Positions 4,704 to 15,720 of a DNA stretch of 64,000 nucleotides are shown here, one piece after another. Position 1 is the first letter of the stretch; each line of letters opens with the position of its first letter. The notes beneath the pieces are model-generated. The model was given only the letters and a program-made list of their open reading frames with translations. It did not search any database and was not told the DNA's origin. The stretch is from Thioalbus denitrificans (GTDB taxonomy: Bacteria > Pseudomonadota > Gammaproteobacteria > DSM-26407). A program made the position numbers and the translations under genes. The stretch is from the NCBI RefSeq assembly GCF_003337735.1, contig NZ_QPJY01000001.1, forward strand, positions 488,650 to 552,649, in the 5' to 3' direction.

Positions 4704-6061
4704 GCCGCTTCCCCCGCCAGTCCGGGGCGTGGCGCCAGGGCCGTGGCGGCGGCCGTGGCGGTTCCGTTCCACGGGGCCTCCACCCCCAGGCCGCGGGCGA
4801 CCTCCACGGCGGACCGCAGGCCGTCCTCGTGGAAGCCGTAGCCGCAATAGCTGCCGCAGAACCAGACCCGGCCACCGCCCTGGATCTGGCCCAGCGCCGA
4901 CTGGGCCTCCAGGGCGGCGGCGTCGAAGACCGGGTGGCGGTAGTGGATCTCGCGCAGCAGGCGGCCCGGGTCGGGCTCCCGCAGGGGGTTCAGGGAGACG
5001 AAGTAGTCGCTCGCGCCGGGCAGGCCCTGGAGCGGGTTCATCCAGTAGGTCACCGACACGGCCGGCGCCGGGCCGGCCGTGTCGCCGAGGTAGTTCCAGG
5101 AGGACCAGACCCGCCGCAGGCGCGGCATCAGGGCGGGGTCGGTGTGCAGCAGGGCGCGGTTGTCCTGGTAGCCGAAGGCGCCCAGCAGCCGGCGCTCCCG
5201 CGGGTCGGGCCGCTCCAGCAGGGCCAGCGCCTGGTCGGCATGGGTGGCGATGATCGCCGCGTCGAAGGACTCTTCACGCCCGTCGGCCAGGCGCAGGGTG
5301 ACGCCCCGTTCGCCGCGGCGCAGGGCGTGCACGGCGGTATCGAGGTGCCGCTCCGGGCCGATGGCCTCCAGCAGCCGCTCCACGTAGCGTCTCCCGCCGC
5401 CAGCAACCGTCCGCCAGCGGGGCCGGCCGGCGAGGTCGATCAGGCCGTGGTTGGCGAAGAACCGGGCCAGGCTGAGGGCCGGGAACTCGAGCATGGCCCG
5501 GCTCGGGCAGGACCAGATGGCGGCCGCCATCGGCAGCAGATAGTGATCGCGGAAGGCGCTGCCGTAGCCGCCCCGCCGCAGGAAATCGCCGAGGCTCATG
5601 CCGCTGTCCCCGCCGCCGGCCGCCAGGCGGCCGGCGGCGCGGTTGAAGCGCAGGATGTCCAGCAGCATGCGGTGGAAGCGGGGGTCGGCCAGGTTGCGCC
5701 GCTGGGCGAACAGGGTTCCCAGGCTGCTGCCCGCGTATTCCACCCGTCCACCGTCGATGGAGGCCGCGAAGGACATGTCCGTGGGCCGGGTGGCGATGCG
5801 GAGATGACGGAACAGGGCGGTGAGGTGCGGGTAGTTGCGCTCGTTGTAGACGATGAAGCCGGTATCCACCGGCAGCGCCCCCTCCCGCGTCGGTACCGAC
5901 ACCGTGTTGGTGTGGCCGCCGTGGTAGCCGTTGCGCTCGAACAGGCTCACGCGGTAGCGGCGCGCCAGCAGCCAGGCCGCGCCGAGGCCGGAGATGCCGC
6001 TGCCCACCACCGCGATGCGGGCGCCGGTGGGGAGGGGGGGATGCAGGAGTTGACTGGGCAT
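4700..6061 (-). CDS. FAD/NAD(P)-binding amine-oxidase-like oxidoreductase
   Basis: Flavoprotein of 453 aa with an N-terminal Rossmann FAD-binding motif VVGSGISGLGAAWLLARR followed by an acidic residue and GGHTNTV, as in NAD(P)-binding amine-oxidase-like proteins partnered with DUF1365 and Cfa-type enzymes. The C-terminal FAD contact is WFCGSYCGYGFHEDGLRSA. Its substrate is unknown; oxidation or desaturation of a lipid is inferred from the operon. The start at 6061 (MPSQLL) is preferred over an extra 23-residue leader rich in Tyr and Leu. First gene of a three-gene run with 4-bp overlaps, transcribed away from the glutathione peroxidase gene. Confidence 0.85.
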
Positions 6062-6092
6062 GGACGGCTCCGTGAACCAGGGCGTTGTAATG

Positions 6093-6130
6093 TTGTACAA
6101 TAGTAATACATAATCGGTGCAGTCCTGCAA
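6093..6130 (-). promoter_or_regulatory. Candidate long-spacer promoter with TTGTACAA palindrome
   Basis: In the 89-bp divergent gap, the minus strand offers TTGCAG (6130-6125) and TACTAT (6105-6100) separated by 19 bp, a spacing typical of MerR-family-controlled promoters. The palindrome TTGTACAA (6093-6100) abuts the -10. LitR, a B12-dependent MerR-family light regulator, recognises TGTACA-containing sites in other proteobacteria and controls similar gene trios. This region is clearly more AT-rich than its surroundings. No litR gene is in the window, so the assignment is an inference. Confidence 0.35.
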
Positions 6131-6150
6131 CCCCGAGATGGAGAACCGCC

Positions 6151-6708
6151 ATGCTTTCCAGCCTGTTGATCACCGTTATCACCGCCTTGTCGGCTCCTGC
6201 CGAGGCGGCGGAAACATGCCCAGAAGTACTTTCATATGAGGTCAGAAACCTGAATGGAAAGGAATCCGTCCGGCTCTGCGACGCCTACCGCGGCAAGGTG
6301 CTGCTGGTGGTGAACACGGCCAGCAAGTGTGCGTTCACGCCCCAGTACGAGGGGCTTGAATATTTGTACGATACTTATAATAAGCGGGGATTGGTGGTGC
6401 TCGGCTTCCCCTCCGACGACTTCGGTGGCCAGGAACCGGGCGGCGAGGCGCAGATCCAGCAGTTCTGCCGTCTCGCCTACTCGGTGCGCTTCCCCATGTT
6501 CGAAAAGCTCCATGCGGGCCGGGGCGCGGCACAGCACCCCCTTTACCGTCATCTGGCCGGCGCGACCGGAGTGCACCCGGGCTGGAATTTCCACAAGTAC
6601 GTGATCGATCGGCAGGGTCGCGTGGCGGCGAGCCTGGCGAGCCAGGTGGCGCCCCGGGACCCGGAACTGGTCGGACTCATCGAGTCGCTGCTGGGGACGG
6701 AGGGCTGA
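6151..6708 (+). CDS. Secreted glutathione peroxidase-like peroxidase
   Basis: Thiol peroxidase of the GPx family, 185 aa, predicted periplasmic from an N-terminal hydrophobic leader ending AEAAE. Family motifs are present: the peroxidatic Cys in NTASKCAFTPQYEGLE, the FGGQEPG segment (here FPSDDFGGQEPG) and WNFHKY near the C-terminus. It reduces hydroperoxides, probably with a thioredoxin-like donor. SD GGAGAA lies 5 nt before the ATG. The first half uses unusually AT-rich codons for this genome (for example around 6225-6250 and 6358-6385), unlike its neighbours. It is divergent from the lipid-modification trio and followed 4 bp later by the DUF3429 gene. Confidence 0.9.
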   Translation: MLSSLLITVITALSAPAEAAETCPEVLSYEVRNLNGKESVRLCDAYRGKVLLVVNTASKCAFTPQYEGLEYLYDTYNKRGLVVLGFPSDDFGGQEPGGEAQIQQFCRLAYSVRFPMFEKLHAGRGAAQHPLYRHLAGATGVHPGWNFHKYVIDRQGRVAASLASQVAPRDPELVGLIESLLGTEG

Positions 6709-6712
6709 CCGG

Positions 6713-8169: not shown

Positions 8170-8282
8170 CGCCGATCACGCGCCTGACCGTCCCGCCAGG
8201 CGCTCGCCGGGACCGGGTTCGTACCCCAGCCGAGGTGCCCATGTCCGGAACGGTGCTGTTCACTCCGGGGGGGTGGCCAGGG

Positions 8283-9008
8283 ATGATCGGGCGTTTCCCC
8301 CTCCTCTTCGCCGTGCTGCTCGCCGCCGCGGCTGGCTGCGCGCCCCCGGCGCCGCGTCCGGCGGGGGAGCGCGCCGTGTCCCCGGCGCCGGGGGTGGTGG
8401 TGGTGGTGAGCGAGCACGTCACCATCGACCGGGCGGAGGGGCGTGAATGGATCCGGGCCGTCGACCCGCTGCCGCTGGAGCGGCGCCTGCAGGCGTGTCT
8501 GGGGCGGGAGGTTGGCCGTGCCTCCCTGCCGCTGCGACTCATTGACGCCGACGAATACCGCCGCCAGGTGCTGCCCGGGCTGGACGCCCGGGATGCTCCC
8601 CGTACCCTGCCCTCCTTCCGGGTGCTCGCAACCGACGCCGGCTTCCGCGCCCGGGCCGGCGCCATCGGCCTGCGCTACGTGGTGCTGGTGAGCGCCCGCG
8701 CAGAGCAGGCCGAAGAGGGCGGCATCGGCTGTTTCAGCGGCTACGGCGGCGGCTTCTGCCTGGGCCTGGTGACCTGGGACAAGACCACGCGCCTGCGGGC
8801 GCAACTCGTCGAGTTGGGGGTGGGGGCGAGCGGCGCACCGGTGACGGCGGATGCCAGCGGGCGGTCCTGGTTCGCCGTGGCGCTGCTGATTCCGCTGGGA
8901 ATGCCCGCGGCGCCGGAGGGCAGGGCCTGTGACAGCCTGGCCCGGGGCGTGGTGGCGGCCATCGCCGCCGGGCGCACGGCGGACGCGGCCCGGCTGCCGC
9001 CGGAGTAG
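8283..9008 (+). CDS. Uncharacterised lipoprotein
   Basis: About 241 aa with a clean lipoprotein signal: MIGRFPLLFAVLLAAAAGC, lipobox AAGC, then a Pro-rich linker. The mature part has no motif I can name; a GGIGCFSGYGGGFCLGLV segment (two Cys, many Gly) stands out in the middle. The start is uncertain: ATG 8283 gives the compact signal peptide, while ATG 8241 (GAGGTG just upstream) would add 14 residues. It is the first of four consecutive lipoprotein genes; the next begins about 50 bp later. Confidence 0.7.
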   Translation: MIGRFPLLFAVLLAAAAGCAPPAPRPAGERAVSPAPGVVVVVSEHVTIDRAEGREWIRAVDPLPLERRLQACLGREVGRASLPLRLIDADEYRRQVLPGLDARDAPRTLPSFRVLATDAGFRARAGAIGLRYVVLVSARAEQAEEGGIGCFSGYGGGFCLGLVTWDKTTRLRAQLVELGVGASGAPVTADASGRSWFAVALLIPLGMPAAPEGRACDSLARGVVAAIAAGRTADAARLPPE

Positions 9009-9055
9009 GTGATGGTCTGCTGGCGCGGCGGCCCGTGGGGGCCGGGGAGGTGAGC

Positions 9056-9493
9056 GTGCACGGGACGAGGGGAGGCGGATGGGTGCGGGCTGCCGCGGCC
9101 CTGTGGCTGGCCGGAGCGCTGCTGGCGGGCTGTGCGCCGGCTCCCGTCCTGACCACCGGGGAGTTTCCCGCGCTGGCTCGCCTGGATACCGTACTTGAGC
9201 GGGGGCGGTCCACCCGCGCCGACGTGGAGCGGCTGCTGGGTTTCCCGGATGGCCGCGGGCATGTGCTGATCCCTCTCGGGGGCGTGGAGGGCCGGGGCTG
9301 GGCCGGGCGTGACGTGTGGTACTACGAGGATATCGAGGCCACGGGCACGGACAAGGCGCGGCGGGAGGGGTCGGTGACCGTCATCCCGCTCAGGGTGCGC
9401 CAGCAGGTGCTGCTGGTGCTGTTCGACGGCCCGCGCTTCGACGGCTACCTGTGGTTCTCCAATGCCCAGCGGGGGGTGGGTCATGTGCGTTGA
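9056..9493 (+). CDS. Tandem lipoprotein 1 (DGYLWFS family)
   Basis: 145 aa. GTG start with SD GGGGAGG 5 nt upstream. Signal peptide of about 25 residues ending in the lipobox LLAGC. The mature protein has LDTVLERGRSTRADVERLLG, then DVWYYEDIEA, then VLLVLFDG and the terminal DGYLWFSN. The order (helix with a 'rad/ed V ... LLG' turn, then strands) resembles SmpA/OmlA/BamE-like small outer-membrane lipoproteins, a fold-level guess only. The two following genes encode diverged copies with the same element order, so this is a local gene triplication. Confidence 0.75.
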   Translation: MHGTRGGGWVRAAAALWLAGALLAGCAPAPVLTTGEFPALARLDTVLERGRSTRADVERLLGFPDGRGHVLIPLGGVEGRGWAGRDVWYYEDIEATGTDKARREGSVTVIPLRVRQQVLLVLFDGPRFDGYLWFSNAQRGVGHVR

Positions 9494-9866
9494 ATCGCGA
9501 CGGTCGCCGGCCCGCCGGGTGCTCCTGCTCCTGCTCCTGGCGCTGGTGTCCGGCTGCGGCACCATGCGCTACGGCGTGCCGCCCCGGGTGGAGCGGCTGG
9601 ACGAGCTCCAGCCGGGGCTGTCGACCACGGCCGATGTCCTCCTGCGCCTGGGTGAGCCCCGCGGGCACGGCGCGGTGCGCCTGGCCCGGGCCGAACCGGT
9701 GCGGGACGTCTTCCTCTACGAGTACGTGGAGGCGGATGCCTCCGGCAAGGCGCGGCTGAAGCTGCTGCTGGTTCTGATCCGGGCCGGCCGTTACGACGGC
9801 CACCTCTGGTTCTCGGACGAGCTGCTGCTGCGCCCGGCGGCCGCGGGCGGCGGGGGTGCGCCGTGA
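9483..9866 (+). CDS. Tandem lipoprotein 2 (DGYLWFS family)
   Basis: 127 aa, start ATG 9483 overlapping the previous gene by 11 bp behind a G-rich SD. Lipobox VSGC at the end of a short signal peptide. Mature region: LDELQPGLSTTADVLLRLGEP, DVFLYEYVEADASG, LLLVLIRAGRYDGHLWFSD. Each block aligns by eye with the copies on either side, although overall identity is low outside the motifs. Predicted lipid-anchored periplasmic protein, function unknown. Very tight packing implies co-translation with both neighbours. Confidence 0.75.
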   Translation: MCVESRRSPARRVLLLLLLALVSGCGTMRYGVPPRVERLDELQPGLSTTADVLLRLGEPRGHGAVRLARAEPVRDVFLYEYVEADASGKARLKLLLVLIRAGRYDGHLWFSDELLLRPAAAGGGGAP

Positions 9867-10252
9867 AGATGCCGGGGCGGTGGATTGAGCATGGCCGGTC
9901 GTGGCGCTTTGTCCTGACCGGGCTGCTGCTGGCGGTGCTGCTCGCGGGGTGTGTGGGCGGGGTCAGCATCCGCAGCGGCCACTGGGTCGATCCGGCGCTG
10001 CTGGAGTCACGGCTGTCGGTGGGCGTCTCCACCCGGGAGGACGTGCGGCGGGTGCTGGGCGCGCCGCTCGGCGGCGGTGCGTTGCTGCTGCCCGGCATGC
10101 CCGGGCCGCGCACGCAGTGGTACTACTACTACGAGCAGGGGACCCTGGAGGACGACCGGCGCCAGTTCCTGTTCGTCTACTTCGACGGCGACACCTACGA
10201 CGGCTACCTCTGGTTCTCCAGCCTGCTGGAAGGGACCCTCCCCGCGCCCTGA
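9863..10252 (+). CDS. Tandem lipoprotein 3 (DGYLWFS family)
   Basis: 129 aa if the GTG at 9863 (GTGA overlap with copy 2) is used, 127 aa from the ATG at 9869. Lipobox LLAGC after a hydrophobic leader. Mature region: LLESRLSVGVSTREDVRRVLGAP, TQWYYYYEQGT, FLFVYFDGDTYDGYLWFSS. The tyrosine run in the middle is striking. Third copy of the family. The gene ends 45 bp before the 3' end of the convergent lnt gene, so the lipoprotein cluster faces the enzyme that completes lipoprotein acylation. Confidence 0.75.
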   Translation: MKMPGRWIEHGRSWRFVLTGLLLAVLLAGCVGGVSIRSGHWVDPALLESRLSVGVSTREDVRRVLGAPLGGGALLLPGMPGPRTQWYYYYEQGTLEDDRRQFLFVYFDGDTYDGYLWFSSLLEGTLPAP

Positions 10253-10297: not shown

Positions 10298-11845
10298 CTA
10301 GTCCGGGATCTCCATGGGCCGTTCCGGCGCCGGTGCGGGGCGCGGGCGCGGCGGCCGGCTGCGGAGACGGCGGGCGCCGGCCCAGGCGGCCACGAGCAGC
10401 AGCAGCGCCGCGGTTGCTACCGGCAGTGTCCCCGTGCGCACGAAGGGGGTGGCGCCGGCGCGCGGCTCGGCGCTGCCGGTGAGCGCCCCGGTCTGGAACT
10501 GGGGGGCCCGGCGCTGGACCCGGCCGCGGTGGTCGACGATGGCGGTGATGCCGGTATTGGTGGCGCGCAGCAGCCAGCGCCCCGTCTCCAGGGCGCGCAT
10601 GCGGGCGATCTGGAAGTGCTGGTGGGGGCCGATGGAGGTGCCGAACCAGGCGTCGTTGCTCACGTTGACCAGCACCTGGGCCGCGGGCAGCAGGCTGCGG
10701 ACCTCGTCGGGGAAGGCGATCTCGTAGCAGACGCTGGGGGCCAGGGTGAGGCCGTTGACCCGCAGCGGCGGCTGGTCGGGGGCGCCGGCGCTGAAGCTCG
10801 ACATGGGCAGGTCGAAGAAGTTGATGAGCCCGCGCAGCAGGCCCGCCAGGGGCAGGTAGTCGCCGAAGGGGACGAGGTGGCGCTTGCGGTAGAGCCCGTC
10901 GCCGTCGCCCACGGCCAGCAGGCTGTTGTAGTAGCGTTGATCCGCATCCATCACCGGCAGCCCCACCAGGACGCCGGCGCCGTGGGCCTTCGCCTCGGCG
11001 TCGAGCTCATCGAGGGTCTTCGGCACCTGGTGGCGGAAGGCGGGCAGGGCGGTTTCCGGCCAGATGATCACCGGCCGGTCCCAGTTCTGCCGGGTCAGCT
11101 CCAGGTAGCGGTCGATGATGCCGCGGCGCTCCTCCGCCGACCACTTCAGGTCCTGGTCCACGTTGCCCTGCAGCAGCGCCACCTCCACCGGTGCGCCGGC
11201 CGGCTCGGTCCACTCCACCCGGCCGATCAGCGCCGCGGCGGCCCACAGCAGCGTCACGCCCATGGCCGCGGCCAGCCGCGGCGTGGCGTGGGGGCCGCGG
11301 AGCAGGGTCAGCAGCAGGGCGGCGCTGAGGGCGCAGGCCCAGGAGACGCCCAGCACCCCGGTCAGCGGCGCCAGCTGCCCGAGCGGGGTGTCGGTCTGGC
11401 TGTAGCCGAGCCAGAGCCAGGGGAAGCCGGTGAACAGCCAGCCCCGCAGCCACTCCCCCAGCACCCACAGGGCGGGAAAGGCGGCCAGCTCCGCCAGCCG
11501 TCCGCCGCGGGGGAAGAGCCGGGCGTAGAGCCAGCCGGTGAGCGCGGGAAAGAGGGCCAGGTACGCGGCCAGCAGGGCCGCCAGCCCGATGGCCACGGCC
11601 AGGCTGGAGTGGCCGTAGACGTGGATGCTCACGTGCACCCAGTTGACCCCGACCCCGAACAGGCCGGCGCCGAACAGGGCGCCGCGCCACAGGGCGCGGC
11701 GGGGCGTGGCGCCGCGCCACAGCCACAGCAGCAGCGCCGGGGCGGCGATGGCCAGCGGGAACAGCCCGAAGGGGGCGAAGGCCAGGGGCAGGGCCAGGCC
11801 GGCGGCCAGGGCCAGCAGGTCGCCGTACCGGGGGCGCAGGTTCAT
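10298..11845 (-). CDS. lnt: Apolipoprotein N-acyltransferase
   Basis: Inner-membrane enzyme adding the third acyl chain to lipoproteins. 515 aa with about six membrane segments in the first 200 residues, then a nitrilase-like periplasmic domain. The catalytic triad is visible: Glu in WPETALPAF, Lys in YRKRHLVPFGDYLP, Cys in SVCYEIAFP, followed by a C-terminal membrane segment. The start MNLRPRYGD at 11845 lies 10 nt after the corC stop; an ATG at 11878 inside corC is in frame but less likely. Last gene of the miaB-ybeZ-ybeY-corC-lnt operon. Confidence 0.96.
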   Translation of the reverse strand: MNLRPRYGDLLALAAGLALPLAFAPFGLFPLAIAAPALLLWLWRGATPRRALWRGALFGAGLFGVGVNWVHVSIHVYGHSSLAVAIGLAALLAAYLALFPALTGWLYARLFPRGGRLAELAAFPALWVLGEWLRGWLFTGFPWLWLGYSQTDTPLGQLAPLTGVLGVSWACALSAALLLTLLRGPHATPRLAAAMGVTLLWAAAALIGRVEWTEPAGAPVEVALLQGNVDQDLKWSAEERRGIIDRYLELTRQNWDRPVIIWPETALPAFRHQVPKTLDELDAEAKAHGAGVLVGLPVMDADQRYYNSLLAVGDGDGLYRKRHLVPFGDYLPLAGLLRGLINFFDLPMSSFSAGAPDQPPLRVNGLTLAPSVCYEIAFPDEVRSLLPAAQVLVNVSNDAWFGTSIGPHQHFQIARMRALETGRWLLRATNTGITAIVDHRGRVQRRAPQFQTGALTGSAEPRAGATPFVRTGTLPVATAALLLLVAAWAGARRLRSRPPRPRPAPAPERPMEIPD

Positions 11846-11855
11846 GGCGGCGGCA

Positions 11856-12740
11856 TCAGCCCTGGCGGCCGCCGGCATCGGCGTCGGGCGCCGGGGCGCC
11901 GGGCAGCGGGTTGACTTCCAGCAGGTGGATGCGGCGGTTGTCCGCGTGCAGCACCTTGAAGCGGAACTCGCCCACCTGCACCGTCTCGCCGCGCTTGGGC
12001 AGGCGGCCGAAGCCCTGGATCACCAGCCCGGCGATGGTGTCGAACTCCTCGTCGCTGAAGGCCGCGCCGAAGTAGTCGTTGAAGTCCTCGATGGGGGTCA
12101 GCGCCTTGACCGTGAAGCGGGTGTCGGAGAAGCGCCGGATCAGGCTCTCCTCGTCGAAGTCGTGCTCGTCCTCGATTTCGCCGACGATCTGCTCCAGCAC
12201 GTCCTCGATGGTCACCAGCCCCGAGACTCCGCCGTACTCGTCCACCACGATGGCCATGTGGTTGTGGCTGGAGCGGAACTCCCGCAGCAGGACGTTGAGC
12301 CGCTTGCTCTCGGGGATGAACACCGCCGGGCGCAGGATGTCGCGCACGTTGAAGCGCTCCGGATCCCGGCCGAAGCAGTAGCCCAGCAGGTCCTTGGCCA
12401 GCAGGATGCCGAGCACCTCGTCGCGGTTCTCGCCGATGACGGGAAAACGGGAGTGGGCCGATTCGGTGATCACCGGGATCATCTGCTCCAGGCTCATGTC
12501 CCGCTCCACCACCACCATCAGGCCGCGCGGCACCATGATGTCGCGCACCTGCATCTCGGCCACCTGCAGCACGCCCTCGATCATGCCCAGGGCGTCGGCG
12601 TCGAGCACTTCCCGTTGCTCGGCATTGCGCAGCAGTTCGATGACTTCCTCGCGATCCCGGGGTTCGCCAAGCAGCGCCAGGCTCAGGCGTTCGAGCCAGG
12701 TGCGTTGCCCGGGACCGGGACTAGATCGATCTTCACTCAT
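11856..12740 (-). CDS. corC: CorC/HlyC-family CBS-domain protein
   Basis: 294-aa cytoplasmic protein linked in enterobacteria to Mg/Co efflux; it probably regulates or assists a transporter. A short N-terminal region is followed by two CBS domains (about 70-190; motifs VRDIMVPRG, SRFPVIGENRDEVLGIL and VVDEYGGVSGLVTIEDVLEQIVGEI) and a C-terminal CorC_HlyC domain with FDTIAGLVIQGFGRLPKRGE. No membrane segments, as expected for the short CorC form. It lies between ybeY and lnt as in E. coli. Confidence 0.95.
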   Translation of the reverse strand: MSEDRSSPGPGQRTWLERLSLALLGEPRDREEVIELLRNAEQREVLDADALGMIEGVLQVAEMQVRDIMVPRGLMVVVERDMSLEQMIPVITESAHSRFPVIGENRDEVLGILLAKDLLGYCFGRDPERFNVRDILRPAVFIPESKRLNVLLREFRSSHNHMAIVVDEYGGVSGLVTIEDVLEQIVGEIEDEHDFDEESLIRRFSDTRFTVKALTPIEDFNDYFGAAFSDEEFDTIAGLVIQGFGRLPKRGETVQVGEFRFKVLHADNRRIHLLEVNPLPGAPAPDADAGGRQG

Positions 12741-12789
12741 GACGGGTCTTCAGGGTCTTGGTTCGTCGGTCGCGGAGTCGGCGCGGCGT

Positions 12790-13272
12790 TCACTCGCCGG
12801 CCGTCTCCCGGTAGGGGTCGGGATAGCCTATGCGGGCGAGTATGGCCGTTTCAAGCGCCTCCATGCCGGCGGCCTCCTCCTCCTCGAGGTGATCGTAACC
12901 CAGCAGGTGGAGAATGCCATGCACCACCATGTGGGCCCAGTGGGCCGCGGCGGGCTTGCCCTGCGCGGCGGCCTCGCGCGCCACCACCGGGGCGCAGACG
13001 ACCAGGTCCCCGAGCAGCGGCAGATCGATGCCGGGCGGCGCCTCGAAGGGGAAGGAGAGGACGTTGGTGGGCCCGCTGCGGTGGCGGTAGCGCCGGTTGA
13101 GCTCGGCGCTCTCGGCCGCGTCCACGATGCGGATGGTGAGCTCGGCGGCGTCCCGGTCCTCTCCCGCCAGGGCGGCGGCCGCCCAGGCCTCGAAGGCCTC
13201 CCGCGCGGGCAGATCCGCCGCGGCGCAGGCCACCTGGAGGTCGAGCTCGATCGCCGGCCGGGCGTCACTCAC
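12790..13272 (-). CDS. ybeY: Endoribonuclease YbeY
   Basis: Zinc-dependent single-strand endoribonuclease for 16S rRNA 3' maturation and 70S quality control. 160 aa with the family motif [15 protein letters not shown] (H3xH5xH) near residue 120 and the N-terminal [16 protein letters not shown]. Its ATG overlaps the end of ybeZ by 8 bp (ATGAGTGA), so the two are translationally coupled; corC follows 49 bp downstream. Confidence 0.96.
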
Positions 13273-14278
13273 CGGCGCCGTCCTCGTCCCGGTAGCCCTC
13301 GTAGGCCTCCACGATCCGCTGCACCAGGGGATGGCGCACCACGTCGCGGCTCTGGAACAGGGTGAAGCTGATTCCCTGCACGTCCCTGAGCACCTCGAGC
13401 ACGTGGCGCAGCCCCGAGGACTTGCCGCGGGGCAGATCCACCTGGGTCACGTCGCCGGTGATCACCGCCGTGGAGCCGAAGCCGATGCGGGTGAGGAACA
13501 TCTTCATCTGCTCGGGAGTGGTGTTCTGGGCCTCGTCGAGGATGATGAAGGCGTCGTTGAGGGTGCGCCCGCGCATGTAGGCGAGCGGCGCCACCTCGAT
13601 GACGTTGCGCTCGATGAGCTTGGCCACCTTCTCGAAGCCGAGCATCTCGTAGAGGGCGTCGTAGAGGGGGCGCAGGTAGGGGTCGATCTTCTGGGCCAGG
13701 TCGCCGGGCAGGAAGCCGAGCCGTTCGCCGGCCTCCACGGCCGGACGCACCAGCAGGATGCGGCGGATGTTCTCCCGCTCCATCGCCTCCACCGCGCAGG
13801 CCACGGCCAGGTAGGTCTTGCCGGTGCCCGCCGGTCCCACGCCGAAGTTGATGTCGTGGGTGAAGATGTTGCGCACGTAGCGGCGCTGGTTCGGGCCGCG
13901 CGGCTTGATGAAGCCGCGGCGGGTGCGGATGACCGTCTCCTGCTCCTCGGCCTCGGCTCGCTCCAGCAGCTCCTCGATGCCCGACTGCTGCAGGAACAGG
14001 TTGACTCCCGCGGGCGTCAGGGTTTCGCGGCCGGCCTCCCGGTAGAGGTCCTCCAGCACCCGTCCGGTGGCGTCCACCGAGTCGCTCTCGCCGATGATGT
14101 GGAAGGCGTTGCCGCGGTTGTTGATCTCCACCCCCAGGCGCCGCTCCAGCTGGCGCAGGTGCTCGTCGAACTGGCCACAGAGGTTGGCGAGACGAAGGTT
14201 GTCGGCGGGCTCGAGGATCAGTTCGCGGGACTGCATCGGGGTTCCGGATGGGCGCGGTGCGGAGGCGGAGCCGGTCAT
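13265..14278 (-). CDS. ybeZ: PhoH-family ATPase YbeZ
   Basis: PhoH-like ATPase, a functional partner of YbeY in RNA processing. 337 aa from the ATG at 14278 (MTGSAS); a second ATG at 14236 (MQSREL) gives the more usual N-terminus and is a reasonable alternative. KH-like N-terminal region; Walker A GPAGTGKT at about residues 148-155; Walker [28 protein letters not shown] further on. Overlaps ybeY by 8 bp; the gap to miaB is 86 bp. Confidence 0.95.
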
Positions 14279-14364
14279 GGACGGGCCCCCGCGAAAGGCG
14301 CGGATAGGGAAAGCATCGGGTCTGTACCGGCGAAGATCAAGGGCGAGGGTGGATGGGGTCGGGG

Positions 14365-15720
14365 TCAGCCGGCGGCGCGGCGGCGGTCGGGGGCGGCCGT
14401 CACCAGCTCGCCGCGCAGGGAGTTGGGCAGGGCCTCGGTGATGCGAACCGCGACGAAATCGCCCGTCAGGGCGGGGTTGCCGCTGAAGTTCACCACCCGG
14501 TTGTTCCCGGTGCGCCCGGCGAGCTGGGCGGGATCCTTGCGCGAGGGACCCTCCACCAGGACGCGCTGCACCGTGCCCACCATCTGCCGGCTGATGCGCT
14601 GGGCGTGGGTGGCCAGCCGCTGCTGCAGCAGTGCCAGGCGCGCCTTCTTCACCGCCGCGGGCACATCGTCCGGGAGATCCGCCGCCGGGGTGCCCGGGCG
14701 GGGGCTGAAGATGAAGCTGAAGGAGCTGTCGAAGCCGATTTCGTCCACCAGCTCCAGCGTCTTTTCGAAGTCCGCCTCGGTCTCGCCCGGAAAGCCCACG
14801 ATGAAGTCCGAGGAGAGGCTGATGTCGGGGCGCACCCGGCGCAGGCGGCGGATCTTCGCCTTGTACTCGAGGATGGTGTGGCCGCGCTTCATCAACGCCA
14901 GGATGCGATCGGCGCCGCTCTGCATCGGCAGGTGCAGGTGGCTCACCAGCTCCGGCACCTCGCCGTAGACGTCGATGAGGCTGTCGGAGAACTCCACCGG
15001 GTGGGAGGTGGTGTAGCGGATACGGTCGATGCCGTCGATGGCCGCCACATAGGTGATGAGTAGCGCCAGGTCGGCGGTCCCGCCGTCGTGCATCCCGCCG
15101 CGGTAGGCGTTCACGTTCTGCCCCAGCAGGGTCACCTCGCGCACGCCCTGGGCGGCCAGCTGCGCCACCTCGGCGATCACGTCGTCGAAGGGGCGGCTCA
15201 CCTCGGTGCCGCGGGTGAAGGGCACCACGCAGTAGGTGCAGTACTTGCTGCATCCCTCCATGATGGAGACGAAGGCGGTGGCGCCCTCGGCGCGCGGCTC
15301 GGGGAGGCGGTCGAACTTCTCGATCTCGGGGAAGGAGACGTCCACCTGGGGGGCGCGCTCACGCGCCAGGCGCTCGAGCATCTCCGGCAGCCGGTGCAGG
15401 GTCTGGGGGCCGAACACCAGGTCGACGAACGGCGCCCGCTCGCGGATGGCCTCGCCCTCCTGGCTCGCCACGCAGCCGCCCACGCCGATCACCAGCTCCG
15501 GCCGGCGCTCCTTCCACTCCCGCCAGATGCCGAGCTGGGAGAAGACCTTCTCCTGGGCCTTCTCGCGGATGGAGCAGGTGTTCAGCAGCAGGATGTCCGC
15601 CTCCTCGGGCCGGTCCGTGGGGACCACGCCATGGGCGGCGTTGAGCACGTCCGTCATCTTGGCGGAGTCGTACTCGTTCATCTGGCAGCCGAAGGTGCGG
15701 ATGTACAGCTTGCGCGGCAT
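14365..15720 (-). CDS. miaB: tRNA-2-methylthio-N6-isopentenyladenosine synthase
   Basis: Radical-SAM methylthiotransferase acting on i6A37 of tRNA. 451 aa. The N-terminal UPF0004 domain supplies three cluster cysteines ([10 protein letters not shown] at 12, [10 protein letters not shown] at 49, GGCVASQEG at 83). The radical-SAM cluster motif is CSKYCTYC at 157-164, and a TRAM domain closes the protein ([10 protein letters not shown] to the end). Start ATG at 15720, first gene of the operon ending in lnt. A TATGAT hexamer at 15762-15757 on the minus strand could be its -10. Confidence 0.97.

Follow-up and report, generated by a model that had tools for sequence, protein, structure and literature searches.

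Lipoproteins of the BamE fold are normally known singly or with their domains in tandem within a single chain, and the gammaproteobacterial bamE gene is usually located beside fur and near smpB/rnfH. BamE binds BamD (PMC3359395). BLIP and the PepSY inhibitors have been linked to the same SmpA/OmlA superfamily: BLIP is composed of two tandem domains and binds beta-lactamase, and PepSY acts on peptidases. A QGN motif was reported to be common to all OmlA proteins (PMC2954215). Furthermore, BamE-like membrane-anchored immunity proteins have been found to adjoin lipid-targeting toxins (PMC12419801). Here, a real and conserved 3-gene lipoprotein cassette of the BamE fold is described that lacks a family name. 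The SmpA/OmlA superfamily was already known; what is new is the trio, whose gene order is conserved in four further genomes.

The three genes and their products

The window, i.e. the whole stretch of DNA analysed, comprises 64,000 nucleotides of Thioalbus denitrificans (contig NZ_QPJY01000001.1, positions 488,650 to 552,649). At 9056-10252, three tandem overlapping open reading frames on the + strand were confirmed, each encoding one domain of about 100 residues. Subunit A (9056..9493, +) is a lipoprotein of 145 aa with a GTG start, the lipobox LAGC and an alpha-alpha-beta BamE-like domain that ends with FDGYLWFSN. An alternative longer start at the GTG at 9035 is possible. Subunit B (9483..9866, +; 127 aa) has the lipobox VSGC, carries an LGEPRGxGxxR motif and ends with YDGHLWFSD. 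Subunit C (9863..10252, +; 129 aa) has again an LAGC lipobox and terminates in YDGYLWFSS. Genes A and B overlap by 11 nt, B and C by 4 nt (GTGA). Signal peptides and lipoboxes were judged by inspection instead of a signal-peptide predictor.

All three proteins are related to each other. Pairwise BLASTP yielded E-values of 7e-14 (A-B), 1e-8 (A-C) and 3e-6 (B-C), and Smith-Waterman alignments of the mature parts against 2,000 shuffles gave z-scores of 18, 23 and 15. When the terminal motif was cut off, the z-scores were still 13.6, 13.9 and 6.8, and 0 of 2,000 shuffles reached any of the scores. This means that the similarity extends beyond the motifs. The original prediction of three tandem overlapping lipoprotein genes with a lipobox and a shared terminal motif is therefore borne out by open reading frames, lipoboxes, BLASTP and shuffles alike, whereas the low identity that it claimed outside the motifs was somewhat overstated. 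A profile-profile comparison, which had been proposed as the way to refute the relationship, detected the mutual similarity of A, B and C as well: Between the five-member family profiles of the three proteins, hhalign gave 99.4-99.8%.

Upstream of A, at a distance of 47 nt and on the same strand, a predicted lipoprotein of 257 aa is encoded (8235..9008, +; AAGC), possibly co-transcribed with the trio. It has no relative in Pfam, NCBIfam or PDB; within its own genome, one further, weak match was detected (G000:C12:46237, E 0.002). As a member of the cassette it was rejected, because it is absent from the other four trio genomes and unrelated to a DUF4410 lipoprotein encoded upstream of two other trios (see below). 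A scan for consensus promoters and terminators found no sites. On the other side, the region 10298-15720 (-) of the window contains lnt, a corC-like gene, ybeY, a phoH-like gene and miaB, all named by eye, which face the trio in the usual gammaproteobacterial order.

A BamE-like fold and its nearest relatives

In Pfam, C matches BamE (PF04355) with 27.1 bits and thus passes the cut-off of 23.2. Both other proteins stay below it: A yields only a fragment at E 0.2, B nothing. No protein scanned from the other trio loci passes this cut-off, and NCBIfam names none of A, B and C. With one of three window proteins above the Pfam cut-off and no NCBIfam match, the module is without a name in current family libraries. 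AlphaFold2 models of A and C have confident mature cores in which two helices precede an antiparallel sheet. In a Foldseek search, the best solved match of the A model was 8spr_E, BamE of the E. coli BAM complex, with a probability of 0.98 and a TM-score by target of 0.58, but with a weak E-value of 0.11. The C model found no Foldseek match among solved structures, nor did A, C or the profile retrieve anything significant when solved structures were searched by sequence. The profile built from all 15 proteins of the trios aligned with canonical BamE from the genomes at 96.2% (E 2e-9), and the invariant Gly of the trio is aligned with the G of QGN. From the Pfam match of C, the structural match of the A model and the profile match to BamE it follows that the trio proteins are of the SmpA/OmlA type. 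A, B and C are members of this superfamily (BamE, BLIP-like), and the SmpA/BamE-like fold that had been suggested is supported by the same matches and by the architecture of both models.

The trio proteins resemble BamE as small lipoproteins with two helices and a subsequent beta-sheet. In contrast to BamE, they have a longer insert after the second helix and a DGYLWFS-like end strand, and they are encoded in three tandem copies that always occur together. QGN is absent from 15 of 15 trio proteins and present in the five BamE sequences from genomes that were aligned with them. Furthermore, the trio does not occupy the fur-adjacent bamE site: A canonical QGN-containing bamE is located elsewhere in the genome of the window, between smpB/rnfH and fur (G000:C7, L082 1844-2314). 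Since QGN is missing and an ordinary bamE is present, the trio neither is BamE nor takes its place, and its classification as BamE orthologue or replacement was rejected. The same facts bear on a related explanation, according to which A, B and C are extra accessory BAM lipoproteins that act beside or instead of BamE on particular outer-membrane substrates. The match to BamE within the BAM complex (8spr_E) and the lineage-variable set of BAM lipoproteins, e.g. BamF (PMC3359395), would agree with such a role. However, in addition to the lacking QGN motif and the retained bamE, no bam gene is found beside the trio at any locus and the distribution is very patchy, so that we consider an accessory BAM function distinctly unlikely.

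The terminal motif had originally not been recognised as one known from the family. It is nevertheless not foreign to the superfamily: In the models of A and C, DGYLWFS forms the last beta-strand, and related single-copy lipoproteins have a comparable end. These came up when the class and the Dechloromonas order were searched; they carry V-G-x-D-F soon after the lipid-anchor Cys and end with Y-x-W-[ST], e.g. RVQGYVWSGD. The VGxDF family comprises the closest sequence relatives of the trio (hhalign 97.6%, E 4e-12) and is matched by no Pfam or NCBIfam model at cut-off. Both groups have T-xxxV-xxWLGxP, the W-x-Y region and the terminal Y-x-W-[ST] in common. By contrast, VGxDF proteins are encoded in single copy at the loci found, lack DGYLWF and form a separate clade (100/99); tests of whether the 15 trio proteins make up one clade apart from VGxDF gave p-AU values of 0.27 and 0.43, which favour neither arrangement. 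Judged from the sequences, the terminal motif of the trio is a variant of the VGxDF-type Y-x-W-[ST] ending. VGxDF lipoproteins are related to BamE, widespread in Burkholderiales and Gammaproteobacteria (L087-L095, L002, L014-L016, L018, L019) and merit a family model of their own.

One triplication, carried as a whole

In total, five genomes carry all three genes, arranged in one and the same order. When one genome per species was scanned, three tandem copies each were detected in Dechloromonas sp. SSD3, Cupriavidus basilensis GW210010_S58 and the gammaproteobacterial MAG Ww503, and a search of Dechloromonas relatives added a fifth genome, again with three copies. The searches covered 369 genomes of the class, 398 of the phylum, 249 and 250 of two families, sets of 13 and 6, and 399 of an order, with partly overlapping samples. 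Apart from the trio loci, these samples contained no strong matches, and among the more than one thousand genomes, none has only one or two members. This co-occurrence is what the original prediction had proposed to look for. Single-copy matches from the class, phylum and order searches were rejected as stray trio members; they proved to be canonical BamE, VGxDF or other SmpA/OmlA-like proteins.

In a tree of the 15 proteins, A groups with A (92/87), B with B (94/90) and C with C (90/86); the supports of these groups are moderate and range from 72 to 97 depending on the tree. Grouping by genome was rejected in five of five cases (p-AU 1.6e-6, 8e-89, 2e-10, 0.003 and 6e-5). In addition, the copies can be told apart by signatures specific to their position: in A, a QQ ahead of the third strand is invariant, whereas B carries LGEP[RQ]GxGxxR and C carries Y-x-[YF]-E-x-G. 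Between Dechloromonas and Cupriavidus, pN amounts to 0.24-0.29 versus a pS of 0.63-0.74 for all three copies, values that indicate only the direction because synonymous sites are near saturation. A, B and C originate from one ancient shared triplication and not from separate events in each genome, so that the old duplication with preserved order postulated at the outset could be substantiated. The individual signatures imply that the functions of the copies have diverged. One might therefore imagine three independent single-protein functions which have stayed together merely because of the old tandem duplication. Against this speaks that genomes with one or two members are missing despite the scattered occurrence of the trio, and we regard independent functions as quite improbable.

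Carriage is patchy: The trio is present in one of six genomes in the genus of the fifth genome and in one of 13 in the family of Ww503. This points to a spread as block with frequent loss or horizontal transfer. The G+C content of the trio is 55.0% versus 63.6% in the surroundings in Dechloromonas and 60.0% versus 63.8% in Cupriavidus. In the window, the trio does not stand out (72.8% versus 71.4%). When G001, the one other genome in the genus, was compared in search of an empty site, the best Lnt match had only 31% identity and probably belongs to another locus.

No partner gene is conserved across the five loci. An upstream gene in common was found at only two of them: In Cupriavidus (L034:7291-7824) and Dechloromonas (L033:7337-7900), the trio is directly preceded by a gene for a DUF4410 lipoprotein, with 61% identity between both proteins. 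DUF4410 lipoproteins were not mentioned in the literature searched. Just upstream in Dechloromonas, a defence-like TIR-AAA gene (L033:3092-4660, +) is followed by a DDE transposase gene (5070-6710, -), with about 0.6 kb between the latter and the DUF4410 gene. In MAG Ww503, an M48 metalloprotease with a PDZ domain is encoded divergently just upstream of the trio (L035:2-1225, -) and is a possible partner candidate at this locus.

Alternatively, the trio could serve as BamE-like immunity or inhibitor lipoproteins which, singly or jointly, neutralise a periplasmic toxin or a hydrolase aimed at the envelope. According to a 2025 survey, no immunity proteins are more widespread next to Lipocone and colicin-M-like toxins than membrane-anchored, rapidly evolving BamE-like proteins (PMC12419801), and the link of the superfamily to BLIP and PepSY inhibitors would suit such a role (PMC2954215). 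The patchy, mobile-looking distribution as well as the transposase and TIR-AAA genes in Dechloromonas and the protease gene in Ww503 point in the same direction. However, no toxin gene was recognised among the selected neighbours scanned at the five loci, two of which lie on short contigs (L035 and L078), and searches of phages, plasmids and viral contigs yielded no relatives and identified no phage or plasmid carrier. Moreover, immunity arrays usually differ in gene order and in how many copies they contain, whereas the trio is fixed at three copies with positional orthology. An immunity function is for these reasons unlikely.

A proposed three-part assembly

In four of the five loci, the stop codon of B and the start codon of C overlap by 4 nt. 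Such a stop-start overlap favours coupled translation of partners. By inspection, the lipobox is retained in 12 of 15 trio proteins; it is replaced by an AxA- or LxA-type signal in A of Dechloromonas and Cupriavidus and in B of Ww503 (L035). Hence, the anchor has been lost from one subunit in three loci, but never from all three subunits. This is expected if the partner subunits hold the unanchored one at the membrane, and going by these signals the lipid anchor of one member seems to be dispensable. Since no Asp is found at position +2, we infer anchoring in the outer membrane. Taken together, the B/C overlap, the anchor pattern and the all-or-none occurrence favour, in a small sample of five genomes, one three-part assembly. 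Co-occurrence, gene order and overlap would also agree with the heteromeric complex suggested at the outset.

According to the model we prefer, A, B and C would be translated from their overlapping genes, exported and tethered by lipid to the outer membrane, where they would assemble at its inner face. The complex could offer a composite surface to which an envelope partner binds, comparable to tandem BLIP clamping a hydrolase or BamE sitting on BamD; such a surface is suggested by the superfamily, which is thought to act by partner binding. The cassette might pass between lineages as a block. For this model as a whole, one complex of A, B and C with a composite surface at the inner face of the outer membrane and a cassette mobile as a block, we see an even chance. 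The scattered, all-or-none occurrence of the trio in unrelated bacteria suggests that it is a ready-made envelope module. It constitutes a simple system for testing how the BamE fold binds its partners and will gain importance if a heterotrimer is shown.

Two groups of described proteins are instructive for comparison. Like the Lipocone-linked immunity lipoproteins, compared here by their description (PMC12419801), the trio proteins are membrane-anchored, BamE-like and patchily distributed, but they lack a recognised toxin neighbour and are fixed in number and order. With BLIP, PepSY and DUF2874, they share the fold class, and in both BLIP and DUF2874 the domain is repeated in tandem (PMC2954215). 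It is tempting, though doubtful, to extend this parallel and to regard the mobile 3-gene system as encoding an obligate heterotrimeric BamE-fold clamp on an envelope enzyme or an incoming toxin, i.e. a split counterpart of tandem BLIP. In the BLIP, PepSY and DUF2874 group, however, the copies reside in one chain, whereas the trio consists of three separate lipoproteins.
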